Source: Rhodanobacter thiooxydans
GTDB lineage: Bacteria > Pseudomonadota > Gammaproteobacteria > Xanthomonadales > Rhodanobacteraceae
NCBI RefSeq assembly: GCF_021545845.1
Contig: NZ_CP088923.1
Span: 558,001 to 622,000, forward strand
Direction of reading: 5' to 3'
DNA: 64,000 nucleotides
Every line of letters starts with the position of its first letter. Within the stretch, counting starts at the first letter, position 1. A program made the position numbers and the translations under genes. Of the stretch, positions 41,301 to 62,080 are shown piece after piece. The notes beneath the pieces were generated by a model that worked only from the letters and a program-made list of their open reading frames with translations, had not been told where the DNA came from and ran no database searches.

Positions 41301-42701
41301 GCTGCCTGCGCGGCAGCGAACCTCGACCTTGCGGCCGCGGCTGGCGGCGACGTTTTCTGAGCTGCCTGCGCGGCAGCGAACGCGACCATCGGCCTATGCA
41401 AGTGGCACCACCATTTCTGAGCTGCCTGCGCGGCAGCGAACTCGATCTGCTGGATTACGCCGATTTTTGGGACTTTCTGAGCTGCCTGCGCGGCAGCGAA
41501 CGTCCACCTTAGCGCCGTTGTGCCGCACCTTCGTTTCTGAGCTGCCTGCGCGGCAGCGAACGCCTCACTCATGATCGCCGCCACGTTGATGATTTTCTGA
41601 GCTGCCTGCGCGGCAGCGAACACGGCGTTCAACAGCCCCCAGACCGTGCCCTTTTTCTGAGCTGCCTGCGCGGCAGCGAACTCGCAGTCGGCGATCATCT
41701 GGGCGATCAGCTTTTTCTGAGCTGCCTGCGCGGCAGCGAACCCGCCGATGACGCCGTGCAGATAGATGGTGGCTTTCTGAGCTGCCTGCGCGGCAGCGAA
41801 CATCCAGCGCGAGGAGCCACGGCCCTTGTGCGTTTTCTGAGCTGCCTGCGCGGCAGCGAACAACGACCCATGCGGCCCGCTGGGTACCATCGTTTTCTGA
41901 GCTGCCTGCGCGGCAGCGAACAACCAGAGCGTCGAATACCCCGGTTTCTACAATTTCTGAGCTGCCTGCGCGGCAGCGAACGCGTTCGACTGGGAATCGT
42001 ACCGGGGCAAGGCTTTCTGAGCTGCCTGCGCGGCAGCGAACTACCAGCAGACCGTCAGCAGCGCCAAGCAACTTTTCTGAGCTGCCTGCGCGGCAGCGAA
42101 CGCCATGGACCGCTTCCGCGAGTGCGGCACGGTTTTCTGAGCTGCCTGCGCGGCAGCGAACGCGTGGTCGCAGGCGGGCGTGGCGACGGTACCTTTCTGA
42201 GCTGCCTGCGCGGCAGCGAACCTGCATCGCACGATTGAATGCGGTTCGATCGATTTCTGAGCTGCCTGCGCGGCAGCGAACGCCGCAAGCACCTGCGCAT
42301 CGAGCTGGTCGACTTTCTGAGCTGCCTGCGCGGCAGCGAACGCACCATGGGCCTACCTTCCGGCGCACGGGTTTTTCTGAGCTGCCTGCGCGGCAGCGAA
42401 CGCCTTGTCGAAACCGATGTTCTGCAGCCCCTCTTTCTGAGCTGCCTGCGCGGCAGCGAACGGCTGCATTGGTGAATATCTGGACACCAATCATTTCTGA
42501 GCTGCCTGCGCGGCAGCGAACCCCAGGCACAGGCCTAGGTCTTCGTTTTTGCATTTCTGAGCTGCCTGCGCGGCAGCGAACGGTGCGAAGTCGCCGCTGG
42601 CGACCTCGACGAATTTCTGAGCTGCCTGCGCGGCAGCGAACGTGATCATGAAGATGATCAGCAGAACCAGCATTTTCTGAGCTGCCTGCGCGGCAGCGAA
42701 C
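38352..42701 (-). CRISPR. Type I-F CRISPR array: 73 repeats, 72 spacers
   Basis: The 28-bp repeat, read on the minus strand, begins GTTCGCTGCC and ends GCAGGCAGCTCAGAAA, matching the type I-F consensus with its internal stem CTGCC/GGCAG. All 73 copies read appear identical. Spacers are 32 bp except two of 33 bp (38920-38952 and 39821-39853). Orientation follows the I-F repeat and the cas operon: transcription is leftward, so spacers near 42.7 kb are the youngest. Uniform repeats at both ends suggest an active array with little decay. Open frames in this stretch are artefacts of the 60-bp period. Confidence 0.98.
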
Positions 42702-42746
42702 GAGGCACTTATGTAGCTAAGTATTTAGCTAACCGCCGGTAAGTGC
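42702..42746 (-). promoter_or_regulatory. CRISPR leader with nested dyads
   Basis: The leader lies between the cas-operon terminator and the first repeat. It holds an outer inverted pair GCACTTA (42705-42711) / TAAGTGC (42740-42746) around an inner pair TAGCTAA (42714-42720) / TTAGCTA (42725-42731). It is markedly AT-rich. These may be sites for integration factors or the array promoter, but I cannot assign them more closely. Confidence 0.65.
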
Positions 42747-42780
42747 AAAAAAGAGGCCAGCTCCCCAATTGGAAAGCTGG
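42747..42780 (-). terminator. Intrinsic terminator of the cas operon
   Basis: On the minus strand CCAGCT...AGCTGG arms (42757-42780, with an inner CCAATTGG core) are followed by CCTCTTTTTT (six T at 42747-42752). It separates cas6f transcription from the leader. Confidence 0.8.
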
Positions 42781-42830
42781 CTTGTAAGTGTTTGAGTTTT
42801 AACGGGCGACTGATGCTGGTCAGAAAAGGG

Positions 42831-43397
42831 TCAAAACCACGGGATGGTGGTGGCTCCGCCAAAGCCGTAGCTGTTGAAGTTGCCGGGAGTGACTTGTGGC
42901 TGCAGTGGACCCATGGCGACGAAGAGGCAGAAGGGTTGCCCCGTACTGCGGCTGTGCAGGTGTACGTAGGGCAGCTTGGGGCGGCGTTCCATGCTGGCTG
43001 GAATGGCGGCCTGGGCCTGTTCTGCGGTCTCGCTCTTGCGATGCATGCGCCGGCGCCGCAGGCGCTCGGCACTAGTCTTGAACTGCTTGCGCTGCACGGT
43101 GCGGTGCGGTGCACCAGCAGGCGCGGCGGCGAGACTGTCGGTGCGGACGTGGTCGCGCATGCCTTTCAGCCAATCCGTGGCCAGCAGCTGTTGCAGGTCG
43201 GTTTCGCTGCCGTGCAGGCGTAACGTGGTGCCCAGTGTACGCGGGTTCAGACCGTAGCCGGGGAAGCTGATGCCGATGCCGTCGCGATGCTGGTGCACCA
43301 GGGCGATATGCAGGTGGTCGTACAACGCCCCGAGCAGTTGCGCGGGTCCGGATTCGGGGTCGGGGATGACCCGGATATCGATGTAGTGCGTGGTCAT
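42831..43397 (-). CDS. cas6f: CRISPR endoribonuclease Cas6f (Csy4)
   Basis: 188 aa. It cuts pre-crRNA at the base of the repeat stem and stays on the 3' handle in the I-F Cascade complex. LHIALVHQHRDGIGISFP aligns with the Csy4 region containing the catalytic histidine (His29 in Pseudomonas), and the C-terminus NSYGFGGATTIPWF matches the conserved Csy4 ending. The Arg-rich helix (ERLRRRRMHRK) is the RNA-binding helix. It begins 4 bp after csy3 and is the last gene before the array. Confidence 0.95.
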   Translation of the reverse strand: MTTHYIDIRVIPDPESGPAQLLGALYDHLHIALVHQHRDGIGISFPGYGLNPRTLGTTLRLHGSETDLQQLLATDWLKGMRDHVRTDSLAAAPAGAPHRTVQRKQFKTSAERLRRRRMHRKSETAEQAQAAIPASMERRPKLPYVHLHSRSTGQPFCLFVAMGPLQPQVTPGNFNSYGFGGATTIPWF

Positions 43398-43401
43398 GGC
43401 G

Positions 43402-44427
43402 TCAGTTCGCTTCGCCGAACACGCCGCCACGGATGAGGGTGGCGATTACGAAATGCTGCTGGTCGGGCTCGGGTGCCTTGTCCTTGATGATCCAGTTGTC
43501 GAGAAGGTTGTAGAAGTCAGTCTTTTCCCTGGGCTGACGATATGCCTTGCCCTGGGTGGTGACCGAGCCGTAGGGCTCGATGGCGATGGGGCCGTTCGCG
43601 GCCGCTTCGGGATACCAGGTGTCGATGGTGCGCAGGGCGTTGCCGATCTTCTGCGAGTGGATGGCGGCTACGTCATCGACGTCGTACAGCGTTTTGCTCT
43701 TGTCGCCACGACCGCGGTCCAGGATCAGTTCCTGCGAGGGGAACACCTCCTGTCCGGCGCCGATGCGCACGAAGGCGGTGACCTGCAACAGCACATGGCT
43801 ATTGCCGGCAAGGCCGTCGGCGATGAGCGCCGCCAGCTCGGACAGCGACTTGGCCTCTGCGGAAGGTGCCTTGAGGTCGAGCAGCGAATGGGCAAGTGCA
43901 TCGAAGGTCCAACGGGTCTTTGCCTGTCCATTCTCGACATGGGCCACGGTTACCTCCACCTGTTCGGCGCCGATACGGTTGCGCCACAGGAAGCGGCCGT
44001 TGGCGAGGTTGGCGGCATAGCGATTGGCCAATTCGGCAAAGCCGTTCTGTTGGACGTAGCCGGCCACGGTGGCCAGCAGCTTCTGCCGGTAGGCGGCGTC
44101 GTTGCAGGCGGAGGGCTGGCCGGTGCCGGCCAGCACGCGCAGGGTGAACTGCACCTTCAGCGTGTCCGCATCGGCGGGCAGGGTGGCTACGTCCACGGTT
44201 TGCAGGTTGGGGTTCTGGATGTCGGCGTCCAGTTTGGCCGGGTCCGTTGCACCACCTTTCAGGCGGTTGGAGATGGTGCCGCGCACGGATTTTTCGCGCA
44301 GCGTGATCGGAGCCCAATTTTGCGACTCGCCGCGCGCGGCCCAGGTGCCGCCGGACAACAGGGCATCGGAAGGGTCGAGCTTGCGCTCGAAGGCGAGGAC
44401 GGAAGCGGTCTTGATTTCATTGGCCAT
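43402..44427 (-). CDS. cas7f: Type I-F Cascade backbone Cas7f (Csy3)
   Basis: 341 aa. Six copies normally coat the crRNA spacer. The N-terminal [20 protein letters not shown] and the mid-region [15 protein letters not shown] are typical of Csy3. The start is ATG 44427, preceded by AAGGAA; an in-frame longer open frame has no family sequence. It lies 19 bp after csy2 and 4 bp before cas6f. Confidence 0.95.
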
Positions 44428-44446
44428 GATGGAATTCCTTGTCGTG

Positions 44447-45421
44447 TCAGAGTGTGGTGTCGGCGGAGCGATAGTCGTTGCGGCAGCGATACAGGCCCTC
44501 GTCGGGGCGGTTGTCGGCGTACCAGAGCAGGTCTTGCGGTGCGCGCAGGCGGTGCGGGCCGATCCATTCGCCCATGGAGTACAGGCTTTCGACGAAGCGG
44601 AAGGGCGTGGTGGCGTCGCGCGCATGGTCCACGCTGCCCGCAGCGTGCAGCTCGCCCAGGGCACCGTAGCCAACCGGGATGGGTATCACCCAACCGAAGC
44701 CTTTCTTGCGGTCGTGTTGCCAGGCGCCTTTGCCGTCATCCGCCTTGCTGTCGTAATGCCAATTGATGCGCGAGAGCGAAAGCCACGCATCGAGGCGGGT
44801 GGCTTGAGGCGAATGCTTGCGCAACTCGTCCAGGCGGCTATCGACCAGGTCGTCGCGGGCCACCAATGCCGAGCCCGGCAGCAGGCGGGCGCGCAGCTTG
44901 CGGAACTCCCTGGCCTGGTCGTCGCTGTCGCCGGTGAAGTCGGCCAGCCATGGGCGACGACTCGAAGCCTGCGCCTGCGGGGCTGGTAGCAGCGTGCCAC
45001 CGGCGATACGCATGCCCTGCAGCAGGTCGAGGATGGCGTCCAGCTCGCGCCGCTGCTCGTCCTGGCCCCATGCCCCGGCATTTACCGCCAGCACCAGACT
45101 GAGGTCGAGATGGATGCGTCCTTCCTCGACGATGGCGGCGGTGCCACCGTCCTTGCCCACCGGATTGCGGGTGAGACGGAAGCTTTTGACGAAGCCGCCC
45201 TCGGTGGTCTGCTCCCGGCGGTCGTGGCAGACCACGCCCACGGCACCGAACTCCAGATCCAGCCCGGCCGCACGGGTCTTGCGTTCCAGCGCCCACATCA
45301 GCCCGAGAAAGGCGGTGATGGACGGGAAGCCGTGGGTCAGTGGGCTGGAGACGGCGTTGGCGTTGTGCACCTTGAGGTGCGGCAACACCAGCAGATGGGT
45401 GAAATGCGGGAGAGTATTCAT
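44447..45421 (-). CDS. cas5f: Type I-F Cascade subunit Cas5f (Csy2)
   Basis: 324 aa. It binds the 5' handle of the crRNA together with Cas8f. The N-terminal [20 protein letters not shown] and [19 protein letters not shown] are characteristic of Csy2, where the fold begins with a Cas5-type strand and the HGFP turn. Its ATG overlaps the csy1 stop by 4 bp, indicating translational coupling. Confidence 0.94.
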
Positions 45422-46785
45422 GCGGCACCCGCCTTGGCGCGGCGTTGCAGCGGGATGGGCCAGGCCACGTCGAGGATAGCGTGGCGGGCGAAGTGACGCA
45501 TTTCCGCCTCGCCGAGCATGGCCAGTTTGTCGCTGCGCTTGCGCAACTGGCCGTTGAGCCAGAGGCCGAAGCGCATGGCCACCTCATCGGCCCAGTCGCC
45601 GCGTTGATAGGCCTGGTTGAAGGCGACATCGTCCTCGCGCCAATGCGGATGTTCGGGGTCGTCGCGCAGCGGAAGCTCGGTGCGCTCGGGGTCGAGCCAA
45701 AGTTGTTCGCATGGAGGCAATTGGAAGTCGGCGTTCCTGGTCCAGCCTGCGCCTCCGCGCGCGCGCGCATCTGCACCGAATAGAGACAGAGCCTCGGCGA
45801 TGTCCTGCAGGAAGCCAGTTACCCGCTCGCGGGTTTCCTTGTTCTGATCCGGGTTGGCCTTGAGGAAGTCCGCAAGCCCGCGAACGAGTTGGCGAACCTC
45901 CTCGAAGAGGATGAAGGCGCCGCGCTTATCGTCGAATACGGATTCAAGCTTGAACAGGTTGACGCCATCGCGTGGCTTCCATGCCGGTGGCGGCAACGAA
46001 GCCAGCAGGTAGTTCACGCCGCCGCGCGCCTTGTTCTGCGGGCTCACGTTCTGGGCATTGGAACCACCGATCGTCCGCGCCACGAGATCGAGGTATGTCG
46101 AGTGATCGGCGAAAGTTGGCTTCTGTTTGCGCGTGCCGCGTGCTGCAAAGGCACCTTCTCTGACGCTTCGAATATCCTCATGCACAACCTGTTCTAGGCT
46201 GCTGGAGAACATCGGTTGTAGGAGGTGGTACTGCCCATCGTCTGTGGGGTCTTCACCTTTCAGCCAGTAGATCTGTTTTGCCAGTGTGCTGGATACGAGC
46301 TTGTCGTCTGGTTGCAGTACTTGTCTGAAGGACTTCATCAACGCCGCGGCTGCAGCAGGATTGTCGTCCAACGCATTTGTAAGGTCGGCATCGTCTTCAT
46401 GCAGCCACTCAAGCAGGCGCTTTCCATCGACTACTTCTTTGAGAAATGAATACACGTCAAGGTGCTTCGCGTCGCTGATGGCGAAATCAAACTGTTGTAC
46501 AGCAAGGCTGTGTGTTCCGATTTCGTCGCGTGCGGTGAGCTCTGCGGTGCCCATGTGGACGCTGCTAGCGCCCTTAATGCCGCTGTGTGTGAATTTGATT
46601 GGGTGTGTTACCACCCGCAGGTTGTGCGCGCGAGATGCCGCATCAGCCAACCAAGTGGCGTAGTCGTATTTCGATGCCGTGTCGGCATCGTCGTCCTTGC
46701 CTTTCAGCTTGGCCTCGCGCCGGGCTTCGATGAAGCCGGTGATGGCGGTACGGAAGGCTTTTCCCCGGTCAGTCAGTTCGCTCAT
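45418..46785 (-). CDS. cas8f: Type I-F Cascade large subunit Cas8f (Csy1)
   Basis: 455 aa, the usual Csy1 length. It recognises the PAM and recruits Cas2-3. The pattern NVSPQNKARGGVNYLLASLPPPAW and the C-terminal RRAKAGAA tail fit the family. The 5' half (46.2-46.7 kb) is visibly less GC-rich than the neighbouring chromosome, as expected for transferred defence genes. It starts 142 bp from the divergent toxin-antitoxin operon, so it probably has its own promoter there rather than being read from cas2-3. Confidence 0.93.
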   Translation of the reverse strand: MSELTDRGKAFRTAITGFIEARREAKLKGKDDDADTASKYDYATWLADAASRAHNLRVVTHPIKFTHSGIKGASSVHMGTAELTARDEIGTHSLAVQQFDFAISDAKHLDVYSFLKEVVDGKRLLEWLHEDDADLTNALDDNPAAAAALMKSFRQVLQPDDKLVSSTLAKQIYWLKGEDPTDDGQYHLLQPMFSSSLEQVVHEDIRSVREGAFAARGTRKQKPTFADHSTYLDLVARTIGGSNAQNVSPQNKARGGVNYLLASLPPPAWKPRDGVNLFKLESVFDDKRGAFILFEEVRQLVRGLADFLKANPDQNKETRERVTGFLQDIAEALSLFGADARARGGAGWTRNADFQLPPCEQLWLDPERTELPLRDDPEHPHWREDDVAFNQAYQRGDWADEVAMRFGLWLNGQLRKRSDKLAMLGEAEMRHFARHAILDVAWPIPLQRRAKAGAA

Positions 46786-46883
46786 GTCCCCTCACCTTTG
46801 CGGTTTTCCATCGGTACGAAGTTCTAGCCCCGGGTGATCGCAGTACTTGCGACATTTATCGAGCGTGGCAGCCCCGGGGCCGA

Positions 46884-46911
46884 GTGATTACAATGCAGTC
46901 ATTGCAATCAC
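46884..46911. promoter_or_regulatory. Palindromic operator of the FitAB-type module
   Basis: Arms GTGATTACAATG and CATTGCAATCAC match at 11 of 12 positions around a 4-nt centre. It sits 17 bp before the antitoxin ATG and about 100 bp upstream of cas8f. Ribbon-helix-helix antitoxins usually bind such dyads to repress their own promoter. Confidence 0.7.
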
Positions 46912-46927
46912 TTCTGGAGGCCTGCCC

Positions 46928-47182
46928 ATGGCCACCATGACTATTCGAAATCTGGATGACGATCTGAAAGCGCGGCTGCGGGTGCGGGCAGCGCGGCACG
47001 GACGTTCGATGGAGGAGGAGGCGCGCAGCATCCTGCGTGCCGCCCTGGCCAATTGTGTCGAAGACGATTCGGGTGCGTCGTTGTATGCCGCCATCCGCGC
47101 CCACGTGGAACCTTTCGGAGGCATCGACCTGGATTTGCCGCCGCGTGAGCCGCAGCGCGATCCGCCGGACTTCGGCGAGTGA
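46928..47182 (+). CDS. FitA/VapB-type ribbon-helix-helix antitoxin
   Basis: 84 aa. The N-terminal strand-helix-helix (MTIRNLDDDLKARLRVRAARHGRSMEEEARSIL is the domain, about residues 4-36) is a FitA-like DNA-binding dimer; the C-terminal tail would block the toxin active site. It has a TGGAGG ribosome site. The stop overlaps the GTG start of the toxin gene (GTGA). It lies antisense between cas8f and cas2-3. Confidence 0.9.
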   Translation: MATMTIRNLDDDLKARLRVRAARHGRSMEEEARSILRAALANCVEDDSGASLYAAIRAHVEPFGGIDLDLPPREPQRDPPDFGE

Positions 47183-47595
47183 TCGTGCTGGATACCAATG
47201 TGCTGTCGGAGTTCATGCGGCCGCAGCCGGACGAGCGCGTGGTGGCATGGCTGAAGCGGCAGACACGCTCGAACCTGTTCACGACGGCGGTGACGCGCGG
47301 CGAGATGCTGTATGGGGTACTGATCCTGTCCGACGGTCAACGCAAGACGCACCTGCGGCAGGAGGTTGCGGCGATCTTTGCCGTCGACATGGCGGGGCGG
47401 GTGCTGCCTTACGACGAAGCGGCCGCCGATGCGCACGCTGCCATCGCCGCGGCACGGCGCACGCAGGGGCGCCCGGTTGGCCAATCCGATGTGATGATTG
47501 CTGGCATCGCGCGATCGCACGGTGCCACCCTTGCCACGCGCAATGTGCGCGATTTCGAAGGTTGCGGCATCCCCCTGATTGATCCCTGGCATTGA
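47179..47595 (+). CDS. FitB/VapC-type PIN-domain toxin
   Basis: 138 aa ribonuclease. The metal-binding acids of the PIN domain are visible: Asp5 (VLDTNVLSE), Glu42 (TRGEMLYG), Asp104 (GQSDVMIAG) and Asp125. Such toxins cleave tRNA or rRNA when the antitoxin is lost. Translation starts at GTG 47179, coupled to the antitoxin. Its stop is only 6 bp from the end of convergent cas2-3. The position suggests it protects the cas locus from loss by addiction, which is inference. Confidence 0.92.
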   Translation: MIVLDTNVLSEFMRPQPDERVVAWLKRQTRSNLFTTAVTRGEMLYGVLILSDGQRKTHLRQEVAAIFAVDMAGRVLPYDEAAADAHAAIAAARRTQGRPVGQSDVMIAGIARSHGATLATRNVRDFEGCGIPLIDPWH

Positions 47596-47601
47596 TCTGC
47601 C

Positions 47602-50600
47602 TCAGCGTTGTCTGGTGAAGCCGAGCCATGGGTGCCAGCGCCAACCTTGATGGTTCTCTTTGAGAAAAGGCACTTCCACGGTGGTGAATCTGCGGGCGGC
47701 AAGATCGAGCGGCAGGTCCTGCGCTTCGGCCTGCTCGCCCACCAGCGACGACAGGTCGAACTCGCCCCAGCAGCTGATGCCGGGAGCAACATTCAGCGCG
47801 ACTTCGTGAAGCAGTTCCTTGGCGGAGATATAGAGCTTCTCGCCACGTTTGCCACCCGGCGCGTCTTCCACACGGTGCGGCTGCAAAGCGTCCCCATCCT
47901 CTTCCGGCAGCCAAGCCAGCGTGGTGCCGGGTTGCTCGTCGTGGCGAAACGGTTGCTGCTGCGCCAGCACACCGGTAAGCGCGGCCCGGGGAGATTCCCA
48001 GGCCGCGGGCGCGTAATCGCGTTCCAGCCGTGGGGATGGTGCAGCGCTGCGGCGTGTGGAGCGAGTGGCTGGCGCAGGTGGCATCGGCAGCATGGCGGCG
48101 CGGATACGCGCCTGTTCCAGATCCACCCAGCGCTCGCATGGCTGCAGCTGGAGCGTGCGCGGTCGGATGCGCGGCTGGGCGTCGATATGGCGGTATTCGT
48201 TCTCGGCAAGGAGCATGTGCAGGCTGTGGCTGACCAGCAGGAAACGGCCGTTGTCGCGTTCGGTCTCGAAGCCGGGGCGGGTGAATACCGGCTGGCGGCC
48301 GTCACGCCGTTCGATGCCTTTGAGGTTGGTATCGAACACCAGCACGTTGGGTGCGTGCGGTGGCTTGCGTCGATGGCGCTGCACGCGGCCGGCGAGCTGG
48401 ATCAGCGAGCGCATTGAGGACGGTTCGGCTACCGCCCAGTCGGCATCCCAGTCGCGGCCCACTTCGCACACCGGCGAGGCCAGTACCATGAACAGCTGGT
48501 CGGGTTCGGGGTGCATATCGAGTGCGCACCGTATCTGCGGCAGTTGCCATACCGCGTCTTCATTGCGTCGATTGAACGCGGCATCCAGCATGGCTTCGAT
48601 GGCCGAGCGCTGCACCAGCGGAAAACGGGCGTGATACACGCACAGGTGGATGCGTGTACCCTCCGGCGCGGTCTGCGTGTAGAGCCTGCTGGCCACCTCG
48701 AAGATCGGGTCGATGTTGGCCATGCGCACCAGGCCGAAGCTGACGCGCTTGCCGGTGACGGGATCCGGTTGGGCGTGATCGCGGTGCAGGCGCAGGCACG
48801 AGTCGCGCACATGACTGGCAAACTCGGCATGGATGCGCTCGTGTTGTCTGGCGGCGATGTCGATCGGCAGCAGCTCGGCGAGGCGCAGGGGTTCGGCGCC
48901 TTGCAGCTTGGCCACGCGACGTTCGACGAAACGCGCGTGGGCGGTGGCGAAGCCGTCAACGTCGGAAAGGGTGTCGGCTTGCGCACTGAATTCGTCTGTC
49001 CACAGGCAAGGCACTTCGACAGGCCGCTCGGCACTACCGTCGCGCCCACGGTTGCGCTGGTAGTGGCGGCGACCGGCGCGATAGGCCATGAACATGCCCT
49101 CCACCAGGGCCGGCGGCAGGGTGGCCGAGGACAGCACCACGCGGCTGCCGAGCAGGCCAGCCCAGTGCATCAGCCGGGTCAGCGCGGGCAGGTCATCGAG
49201 CTCGTAGTCGTCCAGTTCGTCGAGCACCAGGTCGCTGCTCATCAGCCGCAGCATCGGCGCGATCTGGCGGCCGGCACGCAGCGATTCGGTGGCGGGCGCG
49301 AGGTGATCGACGGTGCATACCAGCATCGGCGCGGAGATCAGCTTGCGGATCTCGGGGTCGGCCAGCGCACGCGACAGCAACGGGTGGTCGGTCACGTTGC
49401 CCTCGTAGAGCACGTGGCTGTCTTCCTCGATCAGCGCCTGCACGGACGCTGAGCCGCTGGCTTCGGCTTTCGCTTCGTAATGTTCGAACAGGGCGTGATT
49501 GGCCGATCCGCCCACCATCACCGCCAGCTCGTCATCGTTCAAGTGCAGGTCGTGGCGATAGCTGCGTCCCGTCTGCAAGGTGAGCGTGCGCAACCCCAGC
49601 GCATAACTCATCCGCAGGCCCAGTTGCGGGTCGGCCAGGGCATACAGGACGCGGGCGTTGGCCAGCGTCTTGCCGCAGCCGGTGGAGGCCATGTTGACGA
49701 TGAAAGCGCCATGTTCGCGCGCTGCCTCGCGCAGGCCGGCGGCGGCATCGAAGGCCTTGTCCTGCCAGGCGAAGCGTGCGTCGCCGCTGCGCTTGCGCAG
49801 GCCGCGGTGGTTGGCGAGGCGAGGCAAGTGGCGCTCGAAATTGGGCAGCGCATGGGCGATCAGGCTGGCGGTATGGCCGACGCCGAGGAGGTGTTCCAGC
49901 AGCGACTGGTTGAGCCGGGTTTTCCCCTGCCTGTCCTTGCGGGTGTTGGCAAACACGCGCTGACCCGCCTGCACGAAACGCGTTCGCTCGGCCACCGGAT
50001 TGCCGGCGTCGTCCGCGCCCAGGCTGGAATAGTGATGGTCGGCCAGCATCAGCGCGAGCCGGGCCAGATGCATCGCGTAGGGATTGCCCAGCCAATCCGC
50101 ATCGCGCCGTGCACGAAGCTGCAGCAAGGCCTTGGCGCCGCGCCGGGCCTGCGTGCGCCATGCGGGTGCCATGGCGGGAAGCTCGCCCGCCAACTGCCAG
50201 TACGGCAAGGCTTGCCCCGCCGTGGAGTGCTGGTCGATCTCGTTCCAGTCATGGGCGACTTGCGCCAGCGGAGTTTCCAGCCAGGTCTGCTCGAAGCGAC
50301 CCGCGCGCTTGCCCAGCCAGTCCTGGCCGCTGTCGTCCGGTCTGGGCACGGGGACGAGCGGCAGGCGGTGATGCGTGACGATCAACCAGCCGATCGCGGC
50401 GGCGAGAGGTGCCTGCGCGGCGAGAGCGCGAAATGGCGTGCGCTCGATACCTGCATCCACCCCATCGCGCAGGTAACGGTCCGGTGCGGTCCAGTCGGCG
50501 TCGTTGCCTTCCTCCTCGCTGGCGAGCCGGCTCAGCCAGCCGGCATCGTCGTCCTTGCCCACGAAGGCCAGGAACAGCCGCAGCGATACCCATTCGTGAC

Positions 50601-51039
50601 GGTAGCGGTTGCGCTCGTCGAGCTTGCCAACGAGGCGTAGCTGGAACGCCACGCTGGCCTTGCCAAGGTCGTGCAGCAGTGCGGCGAGCTGGGCCAGCAG
50701 ACGAATGTCCTGCGCGCTGTGCCAATCGTTCTCGTCGCCCTTGCGCAATACGTCGCTGGACGTGGTGTTGGTCGGCACCGTGCCCTCGGCGTTGAAGCGT
50801 CGCGCGTCACCGACGACCCACAAGAGCTCGCTGTGGTCGGCGCCGCGTATCCAGTGGCAGGCCACCGCGGTGTTCTTGCGTGCGGTCTTGCGCAAGAGTC
50901 TCCGCAAGGTATCCAGCCCGGCCTGGGTAATCGGTGTCTGCCAGGTACGGTCGCCACGCCGTTCGGCGAACTGGTCGAGGATGCGCCGGGTTTCGGTGAG
51001 TGCGCGCTTGTCGCACTGGCTGACCAGCAGCACATTCAT
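47602..51039 (-). CDS. cas3: CRISPR Cas2-3 fusion helicase-nuclease, type I-F
   Basis: 1145 aa. An N-terminal Cas2-like domain (MNVLLVSQCDKRALTETRRI, about 1-95) is fused to Cas3, the hallmark of type I-F. The HD nuclease is marked by HDLGK at 123-127. The helicase has Walker A STGCGKT at 452-458 and a DELD Walker B at 607-610. It forms the adaptation complex with Cas1 and degrades target DNA recruited by Cascade. The ATG overlaps the cas1 stop by 4 bp. The normal neighbour cas8f is separated by the inserted toxin-antitoxin genes. Confidence 0.96.
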   Translation of the reverse strand: MNVLLVSQCDKRALTETRRILDQFAERRGDRTWQTPITQAGLDTLRRLLRKTARKNTAVACHWIRGADHSELLWVVGDARRFNAEGTVPTNTTSSDVLRKGDENDWHSAQDIRLLAQLAALLHDLGKASVAFQLRLVGKLDERNRYRHEWVSLRLFLAFVGKDDDAGWLSRLASEEEGNDADWTAPDRYLRDGVDAGIERTPFRALAAQAPLAAAIGWLIVTHHRLPLVPVPRPDDSGQDWLGKRAGRFEQTWLETPLAQVAHDWNEIDQHSTAGQALPYWQLAGELPAMAPAWRTQARRGAKALLQLRARRDADWLGNPYAMHLARLALMLADHHYSSLGADDAGNPVAERTRFVQAGQRVFANTRKDRQGKTRLNQSLLEHLLGVGHTASLIAHALPNFERHLPRLANHRGLRKRSGDARFAWQDKAFDAAAGLREAAREHGAFIVNMASTGCGKTLANARVLYALADPQLGLRMSYALGLRTLTLQTGRSYRHDLHLNDDELAVMVGGSANHALFEHYEAKAEASGSASVQALIEEDSHVLYEGNVTDHPLLSRALADPEIRKLISAPMLVCTVDHLAPATESLRAGRQIAPMLRLMSSDLVLDELDDYELDDLPALTRLMHWAGLLGSRVVLSSATLPPALVEGMFMAYRAGRRHYQRNRGRDGSAERPVEVPCLWTDEFSAQADTLSDVDGFATAHARFVERRVAKLQGAEPLRLAELLPIDIAARQHERIHAEFASHVRDSCLRLHRDHAQPDPVTGKRVSFGLVRMANIDPIFEVASRLYTQTAPEGTRIHLCVYHARFPLVQRSAIEAMLDAAFNRRNEDAVWQLPQIRCALDMHPEPDQLFMVLASPVCEVGRDWDADWAVAEPSSMRSLIQLAGRVQRHRRKPPHAPNVLVFDTNLKGIERRDGRQPVFTRPGFETERDNGRFLLVSHSLHMLLAENEYRHIDAQPRIRPRTLQLQPCERWVDLEQARIRAAMLPMPPAPATRSTRRSAAPSPRLERDYAPAAWESPRAALTGVLAQQQPFRHDEQPGTTLAWLPEEDGDALQPHRVEDAPGGKRGEKLYISAKELLHEVALNVAPGISCWGEFDLSSLVGEQAEAQDLPLDLAARRFTTVEVPFLKENHQGWRWHPWLGFTRQR

Positions 51040-52022
51040 GCGGGTTTTCCGTTCGCTAGCGCGGCCGTGTCCAGTGCCACCGCCTTCAGGGTATCGAACA
51101 TGAAGTCCAGTGCTTCGCTGCGGGTAAGCGCCTCGATGCAGTTCTGGCGAAAACCCTGCTCCTCGTCGCCGCGCATGGCCGAGAGAAAAGCCTGAGGCAG
51201 GATATAGGCGTCCTTCACCAGATCAGCCACGTCGAACACCAGGCCGCCGCGCCGCGTCTTGCCATGCAGGATGGCGAGGCCATGCGGCAGGCCCAGTACC
51301 CAGGTCGCCGTGGCGCCCAGGCCGTAGGCGAGGTAGTTGCCGTGGTCGAGGAAGCGGTTGGCCGGATCGCTGCCGGTGCCGCGTTTGGCGCGGGTAAAGT
51401 CGCCGTAGCCGACGGTGTCCACCGCCAGCTTGAACAGGGCCTTGGTGAGGCGGGCTTCCTCGGTCAGCAGGCTGATATTGTCCGGTGCCAGATCAATGGC
51501 GCTCTGCGTGCGTTCCAACAGTTCGACAAGCCGGGTGCCATCCACGGCGAAACCGGCGTGGCGCAGCGCATGCTGTTGCCAGGCTTCGGCGATGCGCCGT
51601 GCGCGGGCGTGCTGGAAGGCCTTGGCGGCGGCGAGGCGAAGGCTATCGTCGAACCAGAACCGCACCCAAGCCTGCAGGTATTCGGTGGGTCGGTATTCGG
51701 ATTGCGGCGAGAACCAGGCCACCTCGATGTCGACCTCGTTCGCGGAAAACAGCGGCGTTCCGCCGCCGCCGCAGAATCCGACCAGCACCCCAGCCTTGGC
51801 CAGTTCGCGCATTGCCGCCTGGGTAATCGAAGTGCCGGTACCCAGCAGCATCGTGGTGGTATTGGCGATCGGGATGTTCCAGTACAGCGACTGTTTGCCC
51901 TGATCCGTTACGTATTCGACCCGGCCACCATTCACCAGCACCCGGCAGTGCTGCAGGTAATAGATGTTTGCGCGCTTGGAATGCAGTATCGACTTGAGGT
52001 CGGTAGGGCCAATCTCGTCCAT
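51036..52022 (-). CDS. cas1: CRISPR integrase Cas1, type I-F
   Basis: 328 aa, normal for I-F Cas1. DLKSILHSKRANIYYLQHCRV at the N-terminus and the catalytic region with FLDHGNYLAYGLGATATWVLG, GLPHGLAILHGKTRRGGLVFDVADLVKDA are diagnostic; metal ligands include the histidine in LPHGLAILHG and Asp in FDVADLVKD. It inserts new spacers with Cas2-3. The start was set at ATG 52022 (MDEIGPTDLKS), as the longer open frame upstream has no Cas1 sequence. It is the first gene of the minus-strand cas operon. Confidence 0.96.
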   Translation of the reverse strand: MDEIGPTDLKSILHSKRANIYYLQHCRVLVNGGRVEYVTDQGKQSLYWNIPIANTTTMLLGTGTSITQAAMRELAKAGVLVGFCGGGGTPLFSANEVDIEVAWFSPQSEYRPTEYLQAWVRFWFDDSLRLAAAKAFQHARARRIAEAWQQHALRHAGFAVDGTRLVELLERTQSAIDLAPDNISLLTEEARLTKALFKLAVDTVGYGDFTRAKRGTGSDPANRFLDHGNYLAYGLGATATWVLGLPHGLAILHGKTRRGGLVFDVADLVKDAYILPQAFLSAMRGDEEQGFRQNCIEALTRSEALDFMFDTLKAVALDTAALANGKPA

Positions 52023-52306
52023 ATGGATTTTCCCCTGAATGCCGAGAGCGGGCGCGTCTTTTACTGCGCGCGATACGCGAAGATTGCGCATCCCGCATCT
52101 CATATACCGAGAATATAGTGGCAGGGCGGTCGACTGGGTCCCGCGAGGTATCCTCGACGGCCTCGCCGTCGGCCAGCCAATACACCCAATGACGCTGTTG
52201 CGGAATGTATGAGCAGCCCAGCTGAACGCTGCGCCAGAATGCTCACAGGCCGTTAACCGCAAGGCAGTTATCACGGACTTCACCGTTCCGGACGAAGTTG
52301 CGTGCG

Positions 52307-52602: not shown

Positions 52603-52618
52603 AGCAGGAGGTACCTCC

Positions 52619-53143: not shown

Positions 53144-53167
53144 GTTACGATGAAGGCAAAGAGGCAT

Positions 53168-53196
53168 GAGAAAGCGTGGCTATGCCGCGCTTTCTC
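53168..53196 (+). terminator. Hairpin after the lipoprotein gene
   Basis: A stem of 13 pairs (one G-T) with a TAT loop joins GAGAAAGCGTGGC and GCCGCGCTTTCTC. No T-run follows, so it may be a weak or Rho-assisted terminator. Confidence 0.5.
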
Positions 53197-53340
53197 GTGG
53201 GCTGGCGCATATGCGCCGCTTTCGCTTGGAACAGTGGCTCGTCCGTGTGCGGGGGAGTTCTCGACCATAACCGCACAGCTGGCACAGAATAGAACCCTTC
53301 AACTGGTGAAAATCTCGGGGGTCCGCTGCGTGTCGTCGGT

Positions 53341-53522
53341 GATTCGATGAGGCCGCAGCTCTTAGCTGCGGATCACCTCCATCGCGCTCTTCAAGGCGCA
53401 AGAGGGCGGGTCGCTTCGATGAGGCCACAGCTCTTCGCTGCGGATCACCGCCGCAGCAAGCCAAACCCACTCCCAAGCCTGTCTCGCTTCAATGAGGCCG
53501 CAGCTCTTCGCTGCGGATCACC
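53341..53522. CRISPR. Three-repeat relic CRISPR array, probably type I-G
   Basis: Three 37-bp repeats lie at 53341-53377, 53413-53449 and 53486-53522, with spacers of 35 and 36 bp. Each contains ATGAGGCC, a stem CAGCTCTTCGCTG and ends GGATCACC. Repeats one and two carry two or three substitutions relative to the third, as expected for an ageing array. Repeat length and sequence are unrelated to the I-F repeat. The third repeat overlaps the end of the truncated cas4-cas1 gene. Confidence 0.85.
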
Positions 53523-54346
53523 ACCTGCGAAACTTCGCGTAGACGCGCGCTGGCGAGCATGTGGCCGTCCTTGTCGGTCACCTCCAGCAGCTCGCCCTTC
53601 TTCGCCAGCTTGGCGCTGTAATGCTGGATGTACAGCGGCAACGCCTCGTGGTGCGGCACGGCCAGCGGGCGTGGCGCCAGCTCGAGCTGATGCAGGAACT
53701 GCACCTCGTCCGGCAGGCAGATGGTCACCAGCGAACAGCGCGGGCACTTGGGGCTGTCCACCAGCGGCGCGGGGATGCGTCCGCCGGCAGCCATGGCGCG
53801 CAGTTCGGCGATGGCGTTGCGGGTGAGCGTGAGCAACTCGTCGTCGAAGGCGACGGCGACGCGCTCCTTGCTGGCGACGTAGTAGATGGCGCCTTCCTCG
53901 CAGGTGTAGCCATGCTCGCGCAGCAGCAGGCCCTGGGCGCACAGCTGCACGCGCTCCGGGTCGTAGACGCCGCGCACCGTGTGCGGACGCCTGCCGCGCT
54001 TGTAGTCGACGGGAGTGACCGTACTGCCTTCGCCTTCGATCAGGTCGAGCTTGGCGACAAGCCCGAGCTTGTTGGAGGAGAGGGTGATGGAGCGCGCATG
54101 GATTTCGGCGTGTTCTTCCTCGGCGGTTTCGGCATCGGGCAGGTCGCCGGAAGGTTTGTCCACGCGCTGGTGCTTGTGGCGGCCTTCCACGGTGTCCGTC
54201 GAATCGGCCCACTCGCCTTGCACCCATTCCAGGTAGGCCAGGCGCGGACAGTACACGTGCTCGTTGAGCATGCGCACCGGAATCGGCGGTTGATCGCCGC
54301 CCAGTTCCGGAAACGGAAGTTCGAGATCCCCCTGCTTCGGTTCCAT
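53489..54346 (-). pseudogene. Truncated cas4-cas1 fusion (type I-G)
   Basis: 285 aa remain. Residues 1-215 are a Cas4 nuclease with an N-terminal CPRLAYLEW cysteine, VDYKRGRRP catalytic lysine motif and CPRCSLVTICLPDE cysteine cluster for an iron-sulphur site. About 45 residues of the N-terminal Cas1 domain follow (LYIQHYSAKLAKKGELLEV, LREVSQVV). At that point, where Cas1 should continue for about 300 residues, the frame runs into a CRISPR repeat and stops. The fused Cas4-Cas1 architecture is the hallmark of type I-G (I-U). The integrase is therefore dead, though the Cas4 part could still fold. Start ATG 54346. Confidence 0.85.
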
Positions 54347-54439
54347 CGAAAGCCGCTCCCCATGGCGTTCGCCGATCCGTATCCGGGTTTTACTACCGAG
54401 CGGCTGGGACGGCAACTTCTTGCGCCATGCGTGGCAGCT

Positions 54440-55696
54440 TCAATCGCCGATCAGGGCAGCCAATTGATCGCGCGCCGTGCGCGGCAGCTTGAGTTCGGTG
54501 GCGATGGCCGGCCAATGAGCCACGGCGTCGCGCACTTCGGCCTCGATGGCTTTCGCCTGCGTTCCGTCGAGCCGGTAGAAGGTGTGGGTGGCTCGCAGGT
54601 TGGCCAGCCGCGGGCTGGGATCGTGCGCATCGATCGCCAGTGCATGTTCGCGCTTGTCCGGGTTCGGATTGATGTCGAAAGCGGGTGCCAGCCGCCATCC
54701 GTCGGGTGTGCGCAGGAAACCGTGGTTGCGCAGGTGATCGTCGCGGTTGCCGATCAGGATGGAGAACGCGATGCGCCGGTAGAGCTGGGCAAGGTCGTCG
54801 CCAATGCCGCCCGGGTCGCCGTGGCGCTGGATGGCCTGTGCGATATCCAGATAGCTGCCGCCCTCGCCGTCATTGCGGCCGGTGAGGGTCATGGTCGAGG
54901 CATACAGGCGACGCGAATCGCCCTGACGGTCGAAGCGCCGCACGGTAAAACTTCGATAGCCACGGCCAAAGCGCAACAGCCGGGCGTCAGGGACGATCAG
55001 GCCGGCAGCCCTGGCGAGCCGCCAGGCCAGGTATTCCCAGGCGCCGACGTCCCGACGATCGTCATGGGCAGGAAACTTGGCCAACCACAGCGCTCCGTGC
55101 TCGTCGGCAAACGTAGCCTTCGGACGCGCCCCGCCCATGCTGGTGCCGGGGGCCATCAGTTGCGCCAGCCAGCGCGCGTACTCGGGGCGCTCCTCGGCAT
55201 CCTCGTGGCCCAGTTCGCGGGCAATCGCTTCCAGCTCACGCAAACGCGTCGCCGGCGGAGCGCTGCGCTCGCGCTCATCGACCCAGGCGTGTGGCGGCTC
55301 GGTTCGGCGAAGACGCAAGGCGCCCATGCGCGTGCAGTCGTCCACCCCGGTCAGGAAATCCCATTCGGAGAGACGCCGCAGGCGCCGCTTCGCTTCGCGC
55401 GCTTCCAGCGCCTCGCGCCGCTCCATCAGCATGCGGCCCCAGCGATCCGGCGAAATGTCGCGGAAGATGCCGAACAAGGCCTGCTCGCGCGCAGGCCACG
55501 ACGGCCCTGCGACCAGAGGCAGGTCGGGCGCGATGGCCACGCTCCGGCGTTGTTCGAGGTAGTCGCGGTGATAAGCGAAGCCGATCGCCTCGCCGGCACC
55601 GTGCCGCTCGCAGCGCAAGCTGCCGATGGCCATGGTTGGTCCGAGCGTGGCGTCGTCCAGCACCACGTCCAGCACGGTTTCGGAACGCGCGCTCAC
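54440..55696 (-). CDS. hipA: HipA-type serine/threonine kinase toxin
   Basis: 418 aa. The glycine-rich loop TSMGGARPK (185-193), the catalytic segment NRDDHLRNHGF (317-327) and the metal-binding DIN (341-343) are the HipA kinase motifs. E. coli HipA phosphorylates glutamyl-tRNA synthetase and triggers dormancy; the target here is unknown. Its start overlaps the antitoxin stop by 4 bp. The operon lies between the truncated cas4-cas1 gene and a Csb2-like fragment. It looks intact. Confidence 0.9.
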   Translation of the reverse strand: MSARSETVLDVVLDDATLGPTMAIGSLRCERHGAGEAIGFAYHRDYLEQRRSVAIAPDLPLVAGPSWPAREQALFGIFRDISPDRWGRMLMERREALEAREAKRRLRRLSEWDFLTGVDDCTRMGALRLRRTEPPHAWVDERERSAPPATRLRELEAIARELGHEDAEERPEYARWLAQLMAPGTSMGGARPKATFADEHGALWLAKFPAHDDRRDVGAWEYLAWRLARAAGLIVPDARLLRFGRGYRSFTVRRFDRQGDSRRLYASTMTLTGRNDGEGGSYLDIAQAIQRHGDPGGIGDDLAQLYRRIAFSILIGNRDDHLRNHGFLRTPDGWRLAPAFDINPNPDKREHALAIDAHDPSPRLANLRATHTFYRLDGTQAKAIEAEVRDAVAHWPAIATELKLPRTARDQLAALIGD

Positions 55697-56007
55697 GGCT
55701 TGCGCCTGCCGCGCGGCGCGCCCACCTGGCGAATGTCCTGCAGGCGGCGGCCGAGTTCGTCCTCCTTGGCCAGGAGGTCGATGTCGTGATCCAGCCCCAG
55801 CACCTCCATCGTGCGCAGCAAGGTGGCCAGACTGCTCGAACCTTCGCCTTGCTCCAGTTTGCGCAAGGTGGGCAACGACACATCGGCCCGCGCCGCCAGC
55901 GCCGCCTGCGTCATGCGCCGCCGCAGGCGTGCTGCACGCAAGCGGGCGCCGAGTGCTGCGAGGCGCTCGGTGGCGGCGGGGAAGATGGGCGGGGCACGCT
56001 TTGGCAT
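55693..56007 (-). CDS. hipB: HipB-type HTH antitoxin
   Basis: 104 aa XRE-family helix-turn-helix protein (MTQAALAARADVSLPTLRKLE, about residues 32-52). It binds HipA and represses the operon. ATG 56007 was chosen; a 12-residue longer start overlaps the operator dyad. It is followed without a gap by hipA. Two nested palindromes directly upstream are its likely binding site. Confidence 0.88.
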   Translation of the reverse strand: MPKRAPPIFPAATERLAALGARLRAARLRRRMTQAALAARADVSLPTLRKLEQGEGSSSLATLLRTMEVLGLDHDIDLLAKEDELGRRLQDIRQVGAPRGRRKP

Positions 56008-56008
56008 G

Positions 56009-56053
56009 GAAAATAAAATATGCTTTTCATAAGCATAAAGCAATTTTATTTTC
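56009..56053. promoter_or_regulatory. Nested palindromic operator/promoter of hipBA
   Basis: An outer pair of 11-bp arms GAAAATAAAAT (56009-56019) / ATTTTATTTTC (56043-56053) encloses a 7-bp pair TATGCTT (56019-56025) / AAGCATA (56031-56037). The AT-richness is striking in this GC-rich window and fits a promoter overlapped by HipB sites. Confidence 0.7.
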
Positions 56054-56270
56054 TATATTGAGGCACAGATTTGAACATCCCCAAGCCGTAATGGCAGGCG
56101 AAGCCCAGTGCCAGCGGGCCGGTCAGTGGTTCGGCAAAAGTCAGTCTCCAGAAACTGCCCAGGCGATCCGGTTGGCTTAGTCCGCGTCGATTGCGGAAAC
56201 GCCGGAAGTGGATCGGCCAGCGCATGCGGCCCTTGCCGACGTCCACTTCGGCGCGGCTAGGCTAGTCTCA
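56046..56270 (-). pseudogene. C-terminal fragment of Csb2 (Cas5/Cas6 of type I-G)
   Basis: About 70 residues follow in one minus-strand frame, ending VPQYRK. The segment IHFRRFRNRRGLSQPDR, then FWRLTFAEPLTGPLALGFA and CHYGLGMF resembles the C-terminus of the GSU0054/Csb2 family: a basic strand, the phrase GPxALGxxxHxGLGxF and the glycine loop that binds crRNA. A stop precedes it in frame at about 56270. In intact I-G operons csb2 often precedes cas4-cas1, which is the relation seen here apart from the intervening hipBA. The assignment rests on remembered family pattern. Confidence 0.55.
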
Positions 56271-56358
56271 AATGTCGAGACTCACGCGCTGCACCCATTG
56301 GGCATGTGCTCCCCCTTGGCTGCCCACCGTTGGCAAGAAAGCATCAAGACGCGCTTTG
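56271..56358. other. Short gap at the end of the relic I-G region
   Basis: No gene or repeat recognised. It marks the junction between the relic cas DNA and the conserved chromosomal helicase gene. Confidence 0.4.
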
Positions 56359-59300
56359 CTACATCCCCCCGAACAACGCCTCCAGATCCTTCTCGTCAAA
56401 CCGCAGCCGCGTCGTGGCGCCGCCGCCTTCGAGCACGGCACGGGCCAGTTCGGCTTTGCGGCCTTGCATGGCCTGGATCTTTTCTTCCACCGTGCCTTTG
56501 CAGATCAGGCGGTAGACGAAGACCGGTTTCTCCTGGCCGATGCGGTGGGCGCGGTCGGTGGCTTGCGCTTCCACGGCGGGGTTCCACCAGGGGTCGTAGT
56601 GGATCACGGTGTCGGCGGCGGTGAGGTTGAGGCCGACGCCGCCGGCTTTCAGGCTGATCAGGAACAGCGGCACGCCGCCTTGCTGGAAGCGCTTGACCAT
56701 GGCGGTGCGTTCGCGCGCCGGGGTCTGGCCGGTGAGGGTGTGGTGGGCGATGCCGCGCTGGTGCAGTGCTGTTTCGATCAGGCCCAGCATTTCGGTGAAC
56801 TGCGAGAACAGCAGCACGCGGCGGCCGTCGGCGAGCAGGCCGTCGAGCAGTTCCAGCAGGGCGTCGAGCTTGGCGCTGGCCTTCACCTTCTTCGCGCTGG
56901 CGAGCTTGACCAGGCGCGGGTCGCAGCAAGCCTGGCGCAGCTTGAGCAGGGCGTCGAGCACGATGATGCCGCTCTGCGCGAGGCCGCGTTCGGCCACTGC
57001 CTGGCGCACGCGTTCGTGCTGGGCCAGGCGCAGGGTTTCGTACAGGGCACGCTGGTCGTCTTCCAGTTCCAGCGTGCGCACGATCTCGGTCTTGGGCGGC
57101 AGGTCGGTGAGCACGTCGTCCTTGCGCCGGCGCAGCAGCAGCGGGCCGATGCGCCGGTTGAGCCGCTGCTGGCGCTCGCGGTCGCCGTGCTTCTCGATCG
57201 GCGTGCGGTAGTGGCGCGCGAACTGGCGCTGGCTGCCGAGCAGGCCCGGTTCCACCGCGTCGAACTGCGCCCACAGTTCGCCGAGGTGGTTTTCCAGCGG
57301 CGTGCCGGTCATGGCGAGGCGGCGCGTGGCGGGGATCTCGCGCACGACCTGTGCGGCCTGGCTGGCGGCGTTCTTGATCGCCTGCGCCTCGTCCAGTACC
57401 AGCAGGGAGAATTTCGCCTCGATGAGCTTGTCGCGGTCGCGCGGCAGCAGCGGGTAGGTGGTGATGACCAGGTCGTGCGCGGCGATCTCGTCGTAGCGGT
57501 CGGCGCGGTCGGCGCCGTGGATCACCAGCACCTTCAGCGCCGGGGCGAAGCGCGCCGCCTCGGCCTGCCAGTTGCCGACCAGGCTGGTCGGTGCCACCAC
57601 CAGTGCCGGCGCATCCAGCCGGCCGCGCTGCTTTTCGCCGAGGAGGTGCGCCAGTACCTGCACCGTCTTGCCCAGCCCCATGTCGTCGGCGAGGATGCCG
57701 CCCAGGCCCGCCGCGCCGAGAAAGTCCAGCCAGGCCAGGCCTTCGCGCTGGTACGGGCGCAGGGTGGCCTTGAAGCCCTTCGGCGCCCTGGCGCTGCGCG
57801 TGGCAAGGTCGAGCAGGGCGAGCTGCGCGCGCAACGCGTCGCCGCCGCGCCAATGCAGCTGGGTATCGTCGGCCAGTGCCTGCAGCGCACGGGCCTGGCT
57901 GCGGTGCAGGCGCAGTGCCTCGCCGCCTTCGAGCCATTCCAGTAGCGGTTCGATCAGCGCGCGCAGGCGCGCCAGCGGAATCTCGACGCTGCGATTCTCA
58001 TCCACCATCACGCGCCAGGCGGCGCGCTTGTTTTCGCGCGCAGGGGCGATGCGCGGAAAGGCCGGGTCGGCCAGCACGCGGCGCAGGATCGGCAGCAGGT
58101 CGACGCGCTGGCCCCCGACGTCGATGCCGAGCGAGACGTCGAACCAGGCATTGCCGCTGGGCTGGATGTCGGCGTGCCAGGCATCGATGTCGACCAGCTC
58201 GTCGTGCGGGAAGCCGGGTTCGTACTCGATGCGGAAGCCGGCGGCAGCGAGCTGGTCGATGGCGTCGCGCCAATCGCGCGGCGCCAGCGGCGGCTTGCGC
58301 GGATGCGGGTGCAGCAGCACGTCGTTGGCGGCGAAGTCGTGGCCGTGGGTGATGTACTCGTACAGGGCCGGACCGCAGCGCATCGCGCCGAGCTGTTCCA
58401 GCCGCTGGGCTGCCTGCTGCTCGGCCGGCAGGTCGCGGTGGATCTCGCGCAGGCGGCCGTCGTGCAGGCTTCGTTCGACCGCATGCTTGCGGGTGGCTGG
58501 CGGCAGGCGTACGCCGGCATAGTCGAATTCGACATGCGCGACGCCGATGTCGTGGGATTTTCCTGCCCATTGGCGCAGGGTGACGGTGCGTAGGCGCAGC
58601 ACCGGCTGCGGGCGCTCACGCACCACTTCGGCCGGGCCGCGGTCGATCGGCTCGGGCAGCGCCGGGCCGCCGCGCTGCAGGCGCTGGCGCAGCGCAGCGA
58701 CTTGCGGAGGTTGCAGCACGGGTGCGTGCGGCAGGCGATCGAGCAGGTGCGGGTCACCGTCGACGCGGCCGTAGCGCCCCTGCGCGGGCTGCACGTACCA
58801 CAGGCCGGCACCGCGCAGCAGCACGGCATCCTCGGCGTCCACCCGGGCGCGCAGCCGCTGGCTGCCGTCGACGGCCTCCTGCCAGTACAGCTGCAGGGGC
58901 CGCGCCTCGGCGCGTTGCAGCGGTGTCGAGCCGCGCTCGAACCAGACCGGGAAGTGCGCCAGCAGGCATTCCAGCGCCTGTTCTTCATGGACGGCACGGA
59001 TCGGCGCCCAGCGCTGGCTGCCGACGATCACGTACTGGTGCGGTACCAGGGTGGCCAGGGCGGTGGCGGCTTCGATCGACCAGCCGCCGGCTGGCGTGGG
59101 CACCGCCCCTTGGCGCGGATCCAATTGCAGCGGCCGCGGATCGACCAGTTCGCTGCGGTTGCGTTGCTTCGATGGGCGCAGCCACGCCGGCCAGGCCAGC
59201 AGGTCCGCGACCGGCGATCCACCGCCGGCGCGCAGCAGCACGCCGAAGCGGCGGTCCGGCTCGGCCTCGTGGCTGGGTGCGGGTGGCTGCAGCGTGCGCA

Positions 59301-59712
59301 ACCAGTCCTCCCACGAGGCCAGCCCCGATGTGCTGCTGTCGGCGGTATCCGCTTTGGCGCGCTGCGGCTGCAGCCGGGCCGGTGCGGTCGGCGCTGCTGT
59401 CCGCACGACGTCGCCGGTTGCCACCAGCAGCATGGCGGCGGCGTGCTTGCAATCCACGCCGACCGGGCAGCTGCAGTCGCAGTCCAGGGTCAGCCATTCG
59501 CCGTGGTCGTGCACGTCCACCTGGCAGTCGTATTGCTCGCCGTGGCTGCCCTCGACCTGCGCGCTGAGCATGTGCACGCCATTCTCGATGCGGCTGCGCA
59601 GTGTCGACACGCTGCCGTCGGCGGCATAGACACGGGCGCGTGCCAGCGTGCGGTCGTCGAAGTTCGAGCGCCATTCGGCGTCTTGCAGCAGGCGGGTGAG
59701 TTCGTTGCGCAT
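56359..59712 (-). CDS. SWIM zinc-finger SNF2-family helicase
   Basis: 1117 aa. A SWIM finger [13 protein letters not shown] (Cys78, Cys80, Cys88, His90) precedes a long middle region and a C-terminal Swi2/Snf2 ATPase: [11 protein letters not shown] (motif I), [11 protein letters not shown] (motif II), [13 protein letters not shown] (motif III) and the second RecA lobe with [25 protein letters not shown]. It is a DNA translocase remodelling protein-DNA complexes, as HepA-like proteins do. The start at ATG 59712 is supported by the first conserved helix; a longer open frame is probably artefact. Confidence 0.9.
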
Positions 59713-59725
59713 GGATCGGAGGTGA

Positions 59726-62080
<2,355 letters not shown>

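Follow-up and report, generated by a model that had tools for sequence, protein, structure and literature searches.

A type I-G CRISPR-Cas relic in Rhodanobacter thiooxydans, very probably the scar of at least two deletions

The window analysed here, that is, the whole stretch of 64,000 nucleotides taken from contig NZ_CP088923.1 of Rhodanobacter thiooxydans (genome G000 in our comparisons), holds the remains of a type I-G CRISPR-Cas locus that was very probably broken up by two or more deletions, one of them at the microhomology GTGATCC. CRISPR systems are often gained and lost, and their relics as such are of a known kind. The present relic is real and well resolved: the loss of CRISPR systems is seldom seen at base resolution, and here a related locus, L003, supplies the joint of one deletion.

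The Truncated cas4-cas1 Gene and Its Array

The remains of the adaptation genes and of the array comprise the following features.

53489..54346, minus strand: cas4-cas1 stub of 285 aa, with a complete Cas4 domain, about 40 residues of Cas1 and nine residues encoded by a repeat
53515..53521, minus strand: deletion junction GTGATCC, common to cas1 (L003 position 10826) and to the 5' end of the repeat
53486..53521, minus strand: I-G repeat R1, with no mismatch to the consensus, containing the stop codon of the stub
53413..53448, minus strand: I-G repeat R2, with two mismatches to the consensus
53341..53376, minus strand: I-G terminal repeat R3, with three mismatches to the consensus
53377..53485, minus strand: span of the two relic spacers flanking R2 (53449-53485, 37 nt; 53377-53412, 36 nt)

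An earlier note on this DNA had described a type I-G cas4-cas1 gene that breaks off shortly into Cas1 and stops inside a CRISPR repeat, and both the open reading frame and the profile matches agree with this description. The Cas4 domain occupies about residues 22-212, and the TGA stop codon (53489-53491) lies within R1. Searched against family profiles, as the note had proposed, the product matches the Cas4 model TIGR00372 end to end (positions 2-180 of 180) and over its cut-off, which indicates a complete Cas4 nuclease domain, whereas its match to the NCBIfam model NF049935, Cas4g/Cas1g, is partial: residues 22-277 align with model positions 2-255 of 546 (E 1.1e-102). The score of 344 bits falls under the whole-protein cut-off of 560 because the stub is truncated, the relative in L003 reaching 829. 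The relic is assigned to type I-G, and its repeat is identical to that of L003. The segment 53300-54400 is single-copy in the 4.2-Mb genome, and a genome-wide search with the Pfam Cas1 model found one Cas1, belonging to the neighbouring I-F system, and no second I-G Cas1.

The repeat length needs to be corrected from the 37 bp given previously to 36 bp, since all four bases precede the 36-mer among its 89 copies in L003 (46 G, 20 C, 15 T and 8 A). The orientation of the array is given by this shared 36-bp repeat and by a terminal variant common to both loci, R3 and the last L003 repeat both ending in GAATC, which marks the leader-distal end. At up to three mismatches, the genome contains no I-G repeat beyond the three listed, and the repeat occurs in nine of the 233 genomes of the family: three copies in the window genome, one in genome G149 and 39-134 in the other seven. 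Neither relic spacer has a counterpart among the 88 spacers of L003 or a full match in the fetched loci, save for copies of its own genome, and the 28-nt cores of both are without exact match in the viral contig collection.

An Undeleted Counterpart

The closest locus, L003, comes from Rhodanobacter thiooxydans LCS2 (NZ_AJXW01000061.1), appears to correspond to genome G191 of our survey, and is 98% identical to the stub over residues 1-280. Its genes run cas3-csx17-csb1-csb2-hipBA-cas4/cas1-cas2-leader-89 repeats, the cas3 being cas3g and the cas4-cas1 coding for 573 aa, and it offers the intact I-G relative with which the earlier note had wished to see the relic compared, for it keeps cas1, cas2, leader and array. 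L003, of type I-G (formerly I-U), has the same fused Cas4-Cas1, the same repeat, the same gene neighbours and the same genomic site as the relic, whereas the latter retains only about 40 residues of Cas1 and very little of the array, and has lost cas2, the leader and the interference genes. The L003 fusion aligns over residues 14-573 with the solved Cas4/Cas1 fusion 7mi4 of Geobacter sulfurreducens. At the DNA level, the window and L003 are 96.4% identical over 2,698 bp up to the junction, where the alignment stops; it resumes at the terminal repeats and runs through the flanking lipoprotein gene with 85.7% identity over 1,337 bp.

Among the 233 family genomes, which represent one genome per species, 26 have some match to the stub and 16 a long I-G match. 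Apart from the window genome, all 15 genomes with a long match possess an open frame of 578-627 codons; the remaining ten comprise one at a contig edge (G230), a 48-residue fragment (G015) and eight Cas4-like matches of 34-39% identity. A CRISPR array was detected in 65 of the 80 loci compared. Either a full Cas1 elsewhere in the genome or the same short protein without repeats in relatives had been named beforehand as speaking against the relic, and neither was found in the window genome or in this set of one genome per species. Other truncated or contig-edge Cas4-Cas1 proteins are present among the 120 of 1,615 protein matches listed, none of these 120 exceeding 94% identity under a 90% clustering and a length filter through which the same allele could escape.

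The Joint Between cas1 and the Repeat

In L003, cas1 reads CAGGTGGTGATCCAGGGC and the repeat starts with GTGATCCGCAGC, while the joint in the window reads CAGGTGGTGATCCGCAGC. In abbreviated form, CAGGTG-GTGATCC-AGGGC of cas1 and GTGATCC-GCAGC of the repeat have become CAGGTG-GTGATCC-GCAGC. Aligning the junction to the intact cas1 hence reveals the microhomology that the earlier note had thought possible; it measures 7 nt, or more if the lost spacer ended in G. Stretches of at least 7 nt are shared by 0.09% of 400,000 random breakpoint pairs drawn from the same L003 regions, though the word is not rare in itself, since it appears in 170 of 1,000 codon shuffles of cas1 (17%). In the window cas1 joins the repeat directly, with neither cas2 nor leader between cas1 and array, and what is missing (the remainder of cas1, cas2, the leader and the youngest repeats) is what had been predicted from a deletion joining the 5' part of cas1 to a repeat. 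In the geometry of L003, whose array may differ in length from the ancestral one, the loss would amount to about 7.6 kb, from position 10826 to the third-last repeat at 18472.

These sequences point to one clean deletion as the origin of the joint. The GTGATCC within cas1 would have been joined to the GTGATCC opening one of the repeats that lay close to the far end of the former array; replication slippage or alternative end joining is the probable mechanism. Cas1 would thereby have lost most of its coding sequence, cas2 and the leader would have gone completely, and only the last three repeats would have stayed. The reading draws on one strain and one assembly with this joint and on L003 as a stand-in for the ancestral allele.

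Could the joint have arisen in another way? The 5' edge of the repeat is the leader-side integration edge of Cas1-Cas2, and the window junction coincides with the first 7 nt of a repeat, while that of a second relic, in G149, falls at nt 6-8; hence the integrase itself might have produced the deletion, attacking the repeat edge and a repeat-like site in cas1 by aberrant integration or its reversal. Yet simple microhomology suffices for the window junction, the G149 junction shares CCG only and lies off the edge (at least 3 nt are shared by 6.7% of random cas-array pairs in L003), and neither joint displays duplicated or inserted bases; we consider such an enzymatic origin very unlikely. It is extremely unlikely, too, that a self-targeting spacer of the complete I-F system adjoining the relic cut the I-G locus and thereby selected for its loss. 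None of the 72 I-F spacers has a full-length match in the fetched loci (1.87 Mb), the I-G locus included, and for I-G genes the closest hit, to csx17 of G191 with 19 of 20 nt, is ordinary among short matches in these 1.87 Mb; this candidate was set aside as unsupported, even if an old spacer that has since been lost is still conceivable. Finally, arrays are repetitive and the junction is present in one assembly, which might raise the suspicion of an assembly artefact, but this is hardly credible for a genome in two contigs with 100% completeness: the shared word has only 7 nt, assembly overlaps are far longer, and no further I-G repeats, Cas1, Cas3g or Cas8g are found elsewhere in the genome. 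The preferred reading is a deletion at GTGATCC, and the joint suggests that CRISPR repeats are ready partners for microhomology deletions, G149 presenting a different joint into a repeat.

Loss of the Interference Genes

Upstream of the stub, the window contains the following.

54440..55696, minus strand: complete hipA gene (418 aa) within what was the I-G operon
55693..56043, minus strand: hipB antitoxin gene, complete, 116 aa
56055..56261, minus strand: 3' remnant of csb2 (cas5/6), about 69 codons, the one piece of the interference module that was found
56262..56358, minus strand: 97 bp that match none of the loci fetched from other genomes
56359..59877, minus strand: SNF2-type helicase gene, likewise adjacent to the I-G locus in G191, G158 and G149

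The single deletion envisaged in the earlier note explains the cas1-array joint but not the whole relic, the interference genes having been lost in a separate deletion. In the interval between helicase and hipB, the csb2 remnant, which covers 43 positions at the tail of the csb2 profile, is all that is left of them. Genome-wide searches covered Cas3g, Cas8g1, Cas8g2 and csb2. Among six genomes searched, Cas3g exceeds its cut-off in G158, G168 and G191 and not in the window genome, which stays below it together with G149 and G184; weak helicase matches occur in all six, as they do in all 14 control genomes. Cas8g2 is absent from the window genome and present in one of six genomes searched (G158), and Cas8g1/Csx17 is absent from the window genome and present in one of nine (G191). 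Csx17 alone is a poor test for an I-G effector, matching G191 and not G158, G184 or G168; Cas8g2 and Cas3g were searched as well because Csx17 misses G158, which has Cas8g2.

This other deletion, whichever of the two came first, would have taken out the interference genes from the helicase up to the last part of csb2, with a breakpoint presumably within or at the edge of the 97 bp at 56262-56358, and would have left hipBA and the stub with its Cas4 domain between the two cuts. The effector modules of the relatives differ, G158 having cas3g, cas8g2, csb1 and csb2 (the Cas8g2 variant) and G191 having Csx17 together with a csb2 only 32% identical to the window remnant; modules seem to have been exchanged upstream of a conserved hipBA-cas4-cas1 part. 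Behind its complete csb2, L003 carries a second csb2 tail of 50 aa (8138-8290), and G158 has two short pieces of a second csb2 behind its own. The window remnant is longer than the L003 tail (69 codons vs. 50 aa) and therefore does not derive from the G191 arrangement.

Is the Stub Still Functional?

Over 276 codons, the branch leading to the window carries eight synonymous and three nonsynonymous changes and the G191 branch 14 and none, with one change ambiguous, when polarity is taken from three outgroup loci out of five aligned. Neutrality over the entire window branch is unlikely (P about 0.003, or 0.001-0.005 depending on transition bias), while up to about half of it may have been neutral (P 0.05). 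The difference between the two branches is not significant (Fisher P 0.07). The open frame with its few amino-acid changes counts against our main reading: either the deletion took place fairly recently or some selection still acts on Cas4. As the searches found neither an I-G effector nor a complete integrase, spacer acquisition and interference by the relic are not to be expected, although the cell may still produce the stub as an orphan nuclease of the Cas4 kind.

Another possibility is that the stub has been retained as an independent Cas4 with a role in prespacer trimming, perhaps serving the I-F Cas1-Cas2/3 in trans, which would amount to domestication and not decay. I-F systems are not known to use Cas4, and the five other I-F genomes of the genus lack a match to the stub. 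The end-to-end match of the Cas4 domain to its family model and a nonsynonymous share under the neutral level would suit domestication, but three nonsynonymous changes against none on the G191 branch are what some relaxation would give, and a neutral period of up to half the branch fits also. In PMC10504553, the Cas4 domain of a Methanosarcina Cas4/1 is described as having its own Mn-dependent, PAM-specific nuclease activity, which would also suit domestication. On balance we regard domestication as quite unlikely and favour the decay of a deleted I-G locus.

The I-F Neighbour and the Two Slots

38352..52022, no single strand assigned: I-F system, consisting of the array (38352-42701), csy4, csy3, csy2, csy1, a FitAB pair, cas2-3 and cas1

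The complete I-F system reported beside the relic is confirmed by six proteins over their cut-offs (cas1f, cas2-3f and csy1-csy4), which place it in type I-F, and by an array of 73 identical 28-nt repeats. Two of its spacers, 39041-39072 and 41922-41953, differ by one base. The accompanying idea that I-F had replaced I-G did not find the same support: each system has a slot of its own, with a lipoprotein gene between them, and some genomes carry I-F without I-G. The I-F slot corresponds to window positions 38126-52217, the same flanks lying 53-100 bp apart in G191, G149, G176, G155 and G152, and I-F genes adjoin the same lipoprotein gene in G157, G159 and G167. The I-G remains and the helicase fill 53146-59852, where the flanks are 218-361 bp apart in G176, G155, G180, G152, G157 and G159. 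In the 45 genomes of the genus, I-F cas3 is found in six and full-length cas4-cas1 in four (G158, G168, G184 and G191); none has both, which is no evidence of exclusion because about 0.5 genomes would be expected by chance. In several Rhodanobacter genomes, the LysM/lipoprotein region between the slots (52218-53145) is flanked by CRISPR-Cas systems at one end or at both, and it is likely to be a defence hotspot. In G167, helicase fragments lie beside the I-F system with no I-G repeat (L181 13839-14445), perhaps the trace of another lost I-G island.

Embedded Toxin-Antitoxin Pairs and Other Relics

Both systems of the window enclose a toxin-antitoxin pair. The hipBA genes lie inside the I-G operon in G191, in G158 and in both relics, that of the window and that of G149 with a cut hipA; across 80 loci, three of which hold less than 2 kb upstream of cas4, hipBA stands beside cas4 in L003 and L009 only (tblastn, E up to 1e-20), L034 having a relative of hipA 8 kb away. 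The FitAB pair, a FitA-like RHH antitoxin and a PIN-domain toxin, lies at 46916-47595 between csy1 and cas2-3 on the opposite strand, and occupies that position in five of the six I-F genomes known from the genus, the window genome among them; the 6.4 kb covered in G183, where the gene order differs, did not show it.

The relic of G149 (presumably R. denitrificans 2APBS1) runs from the helicase through hipB to a hipA that breaks off after 132 residues at its joint with a repeat (L178 6580-6710), and continues with a second repeat and the lipoprotein gene. With a different shared word and a spacer unlike those of the window, it most simply represents a separate deletion, a nested later deletion being the less simple alternative. 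In G184 the cas4-cas1 is still full-length and 81 or more repeats are present, while its cas3g is reduced to the first 170 profile positions with a csb2 tail within about 100 bp (L187 9766-10632); its interference genes were apparently deleted and its adaptation part kept. The G015 fragment, from a sister genus, is a 48-residue cas4 start broken off beside unrelated DNA (L108); its placement beside a methionine sulfoxide reductase gene was dropped, the reading frame there having no NCBIfam match.

In evolutionary terms, these arrangements raise the question of why parts of a dead locus persist, for which the embedded pairs offer a testable idea. Judging from gene positions, protein toxin-antitoxin pairs such as hipBA in I-G and FitAB in I-F might decide how CRISPR loci can decay, a proposal that we rate as rather improbable. 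If it were true, a cell losing hipB, whether or not hipA went with it, would be poisoned, and surviving deletions would either flank hipBA or cut the toxin gene. Two cases, a small number, fit: the window, with cuts on both sides and hipBA intact, and G149, with hipB intact and hipA cut at the joint. G184, in which no hipBA was seen beside cas4, speaks neither for nor against such a rule.

Comparison with Known Systems

Among the literature matches listed, titles and the beginnings of abstracts contain no description of this relic or of hipBA within an I-G operon. The evolution of CRISPR systems is the subject of PMC6452270 and PMC3150331. PMC5294841 surveys CRISPR arrays that are orphans and cas loci that stand isolated, which resemble the relic in being leftover repeats or cas genes without a working partner; unlike them, the relic has a close undeleted relative that gives the exact joint and the shared word. 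For the embedded pairs, the nearest precedent among the papers listed is CreTA, an RNA toxin-antitoxin that guards CRISPR-Cas (PMC9458426, PMC10097628 and PMC12737573). In contrast to CreTA, hipBA and FitAB are protein pairs, known here from position and conservation and showing no sign of control by a CRISPR effector; what they have in common with it is the nesting of a toxin-antitoxin pair within a CRISPR-Cas locus.
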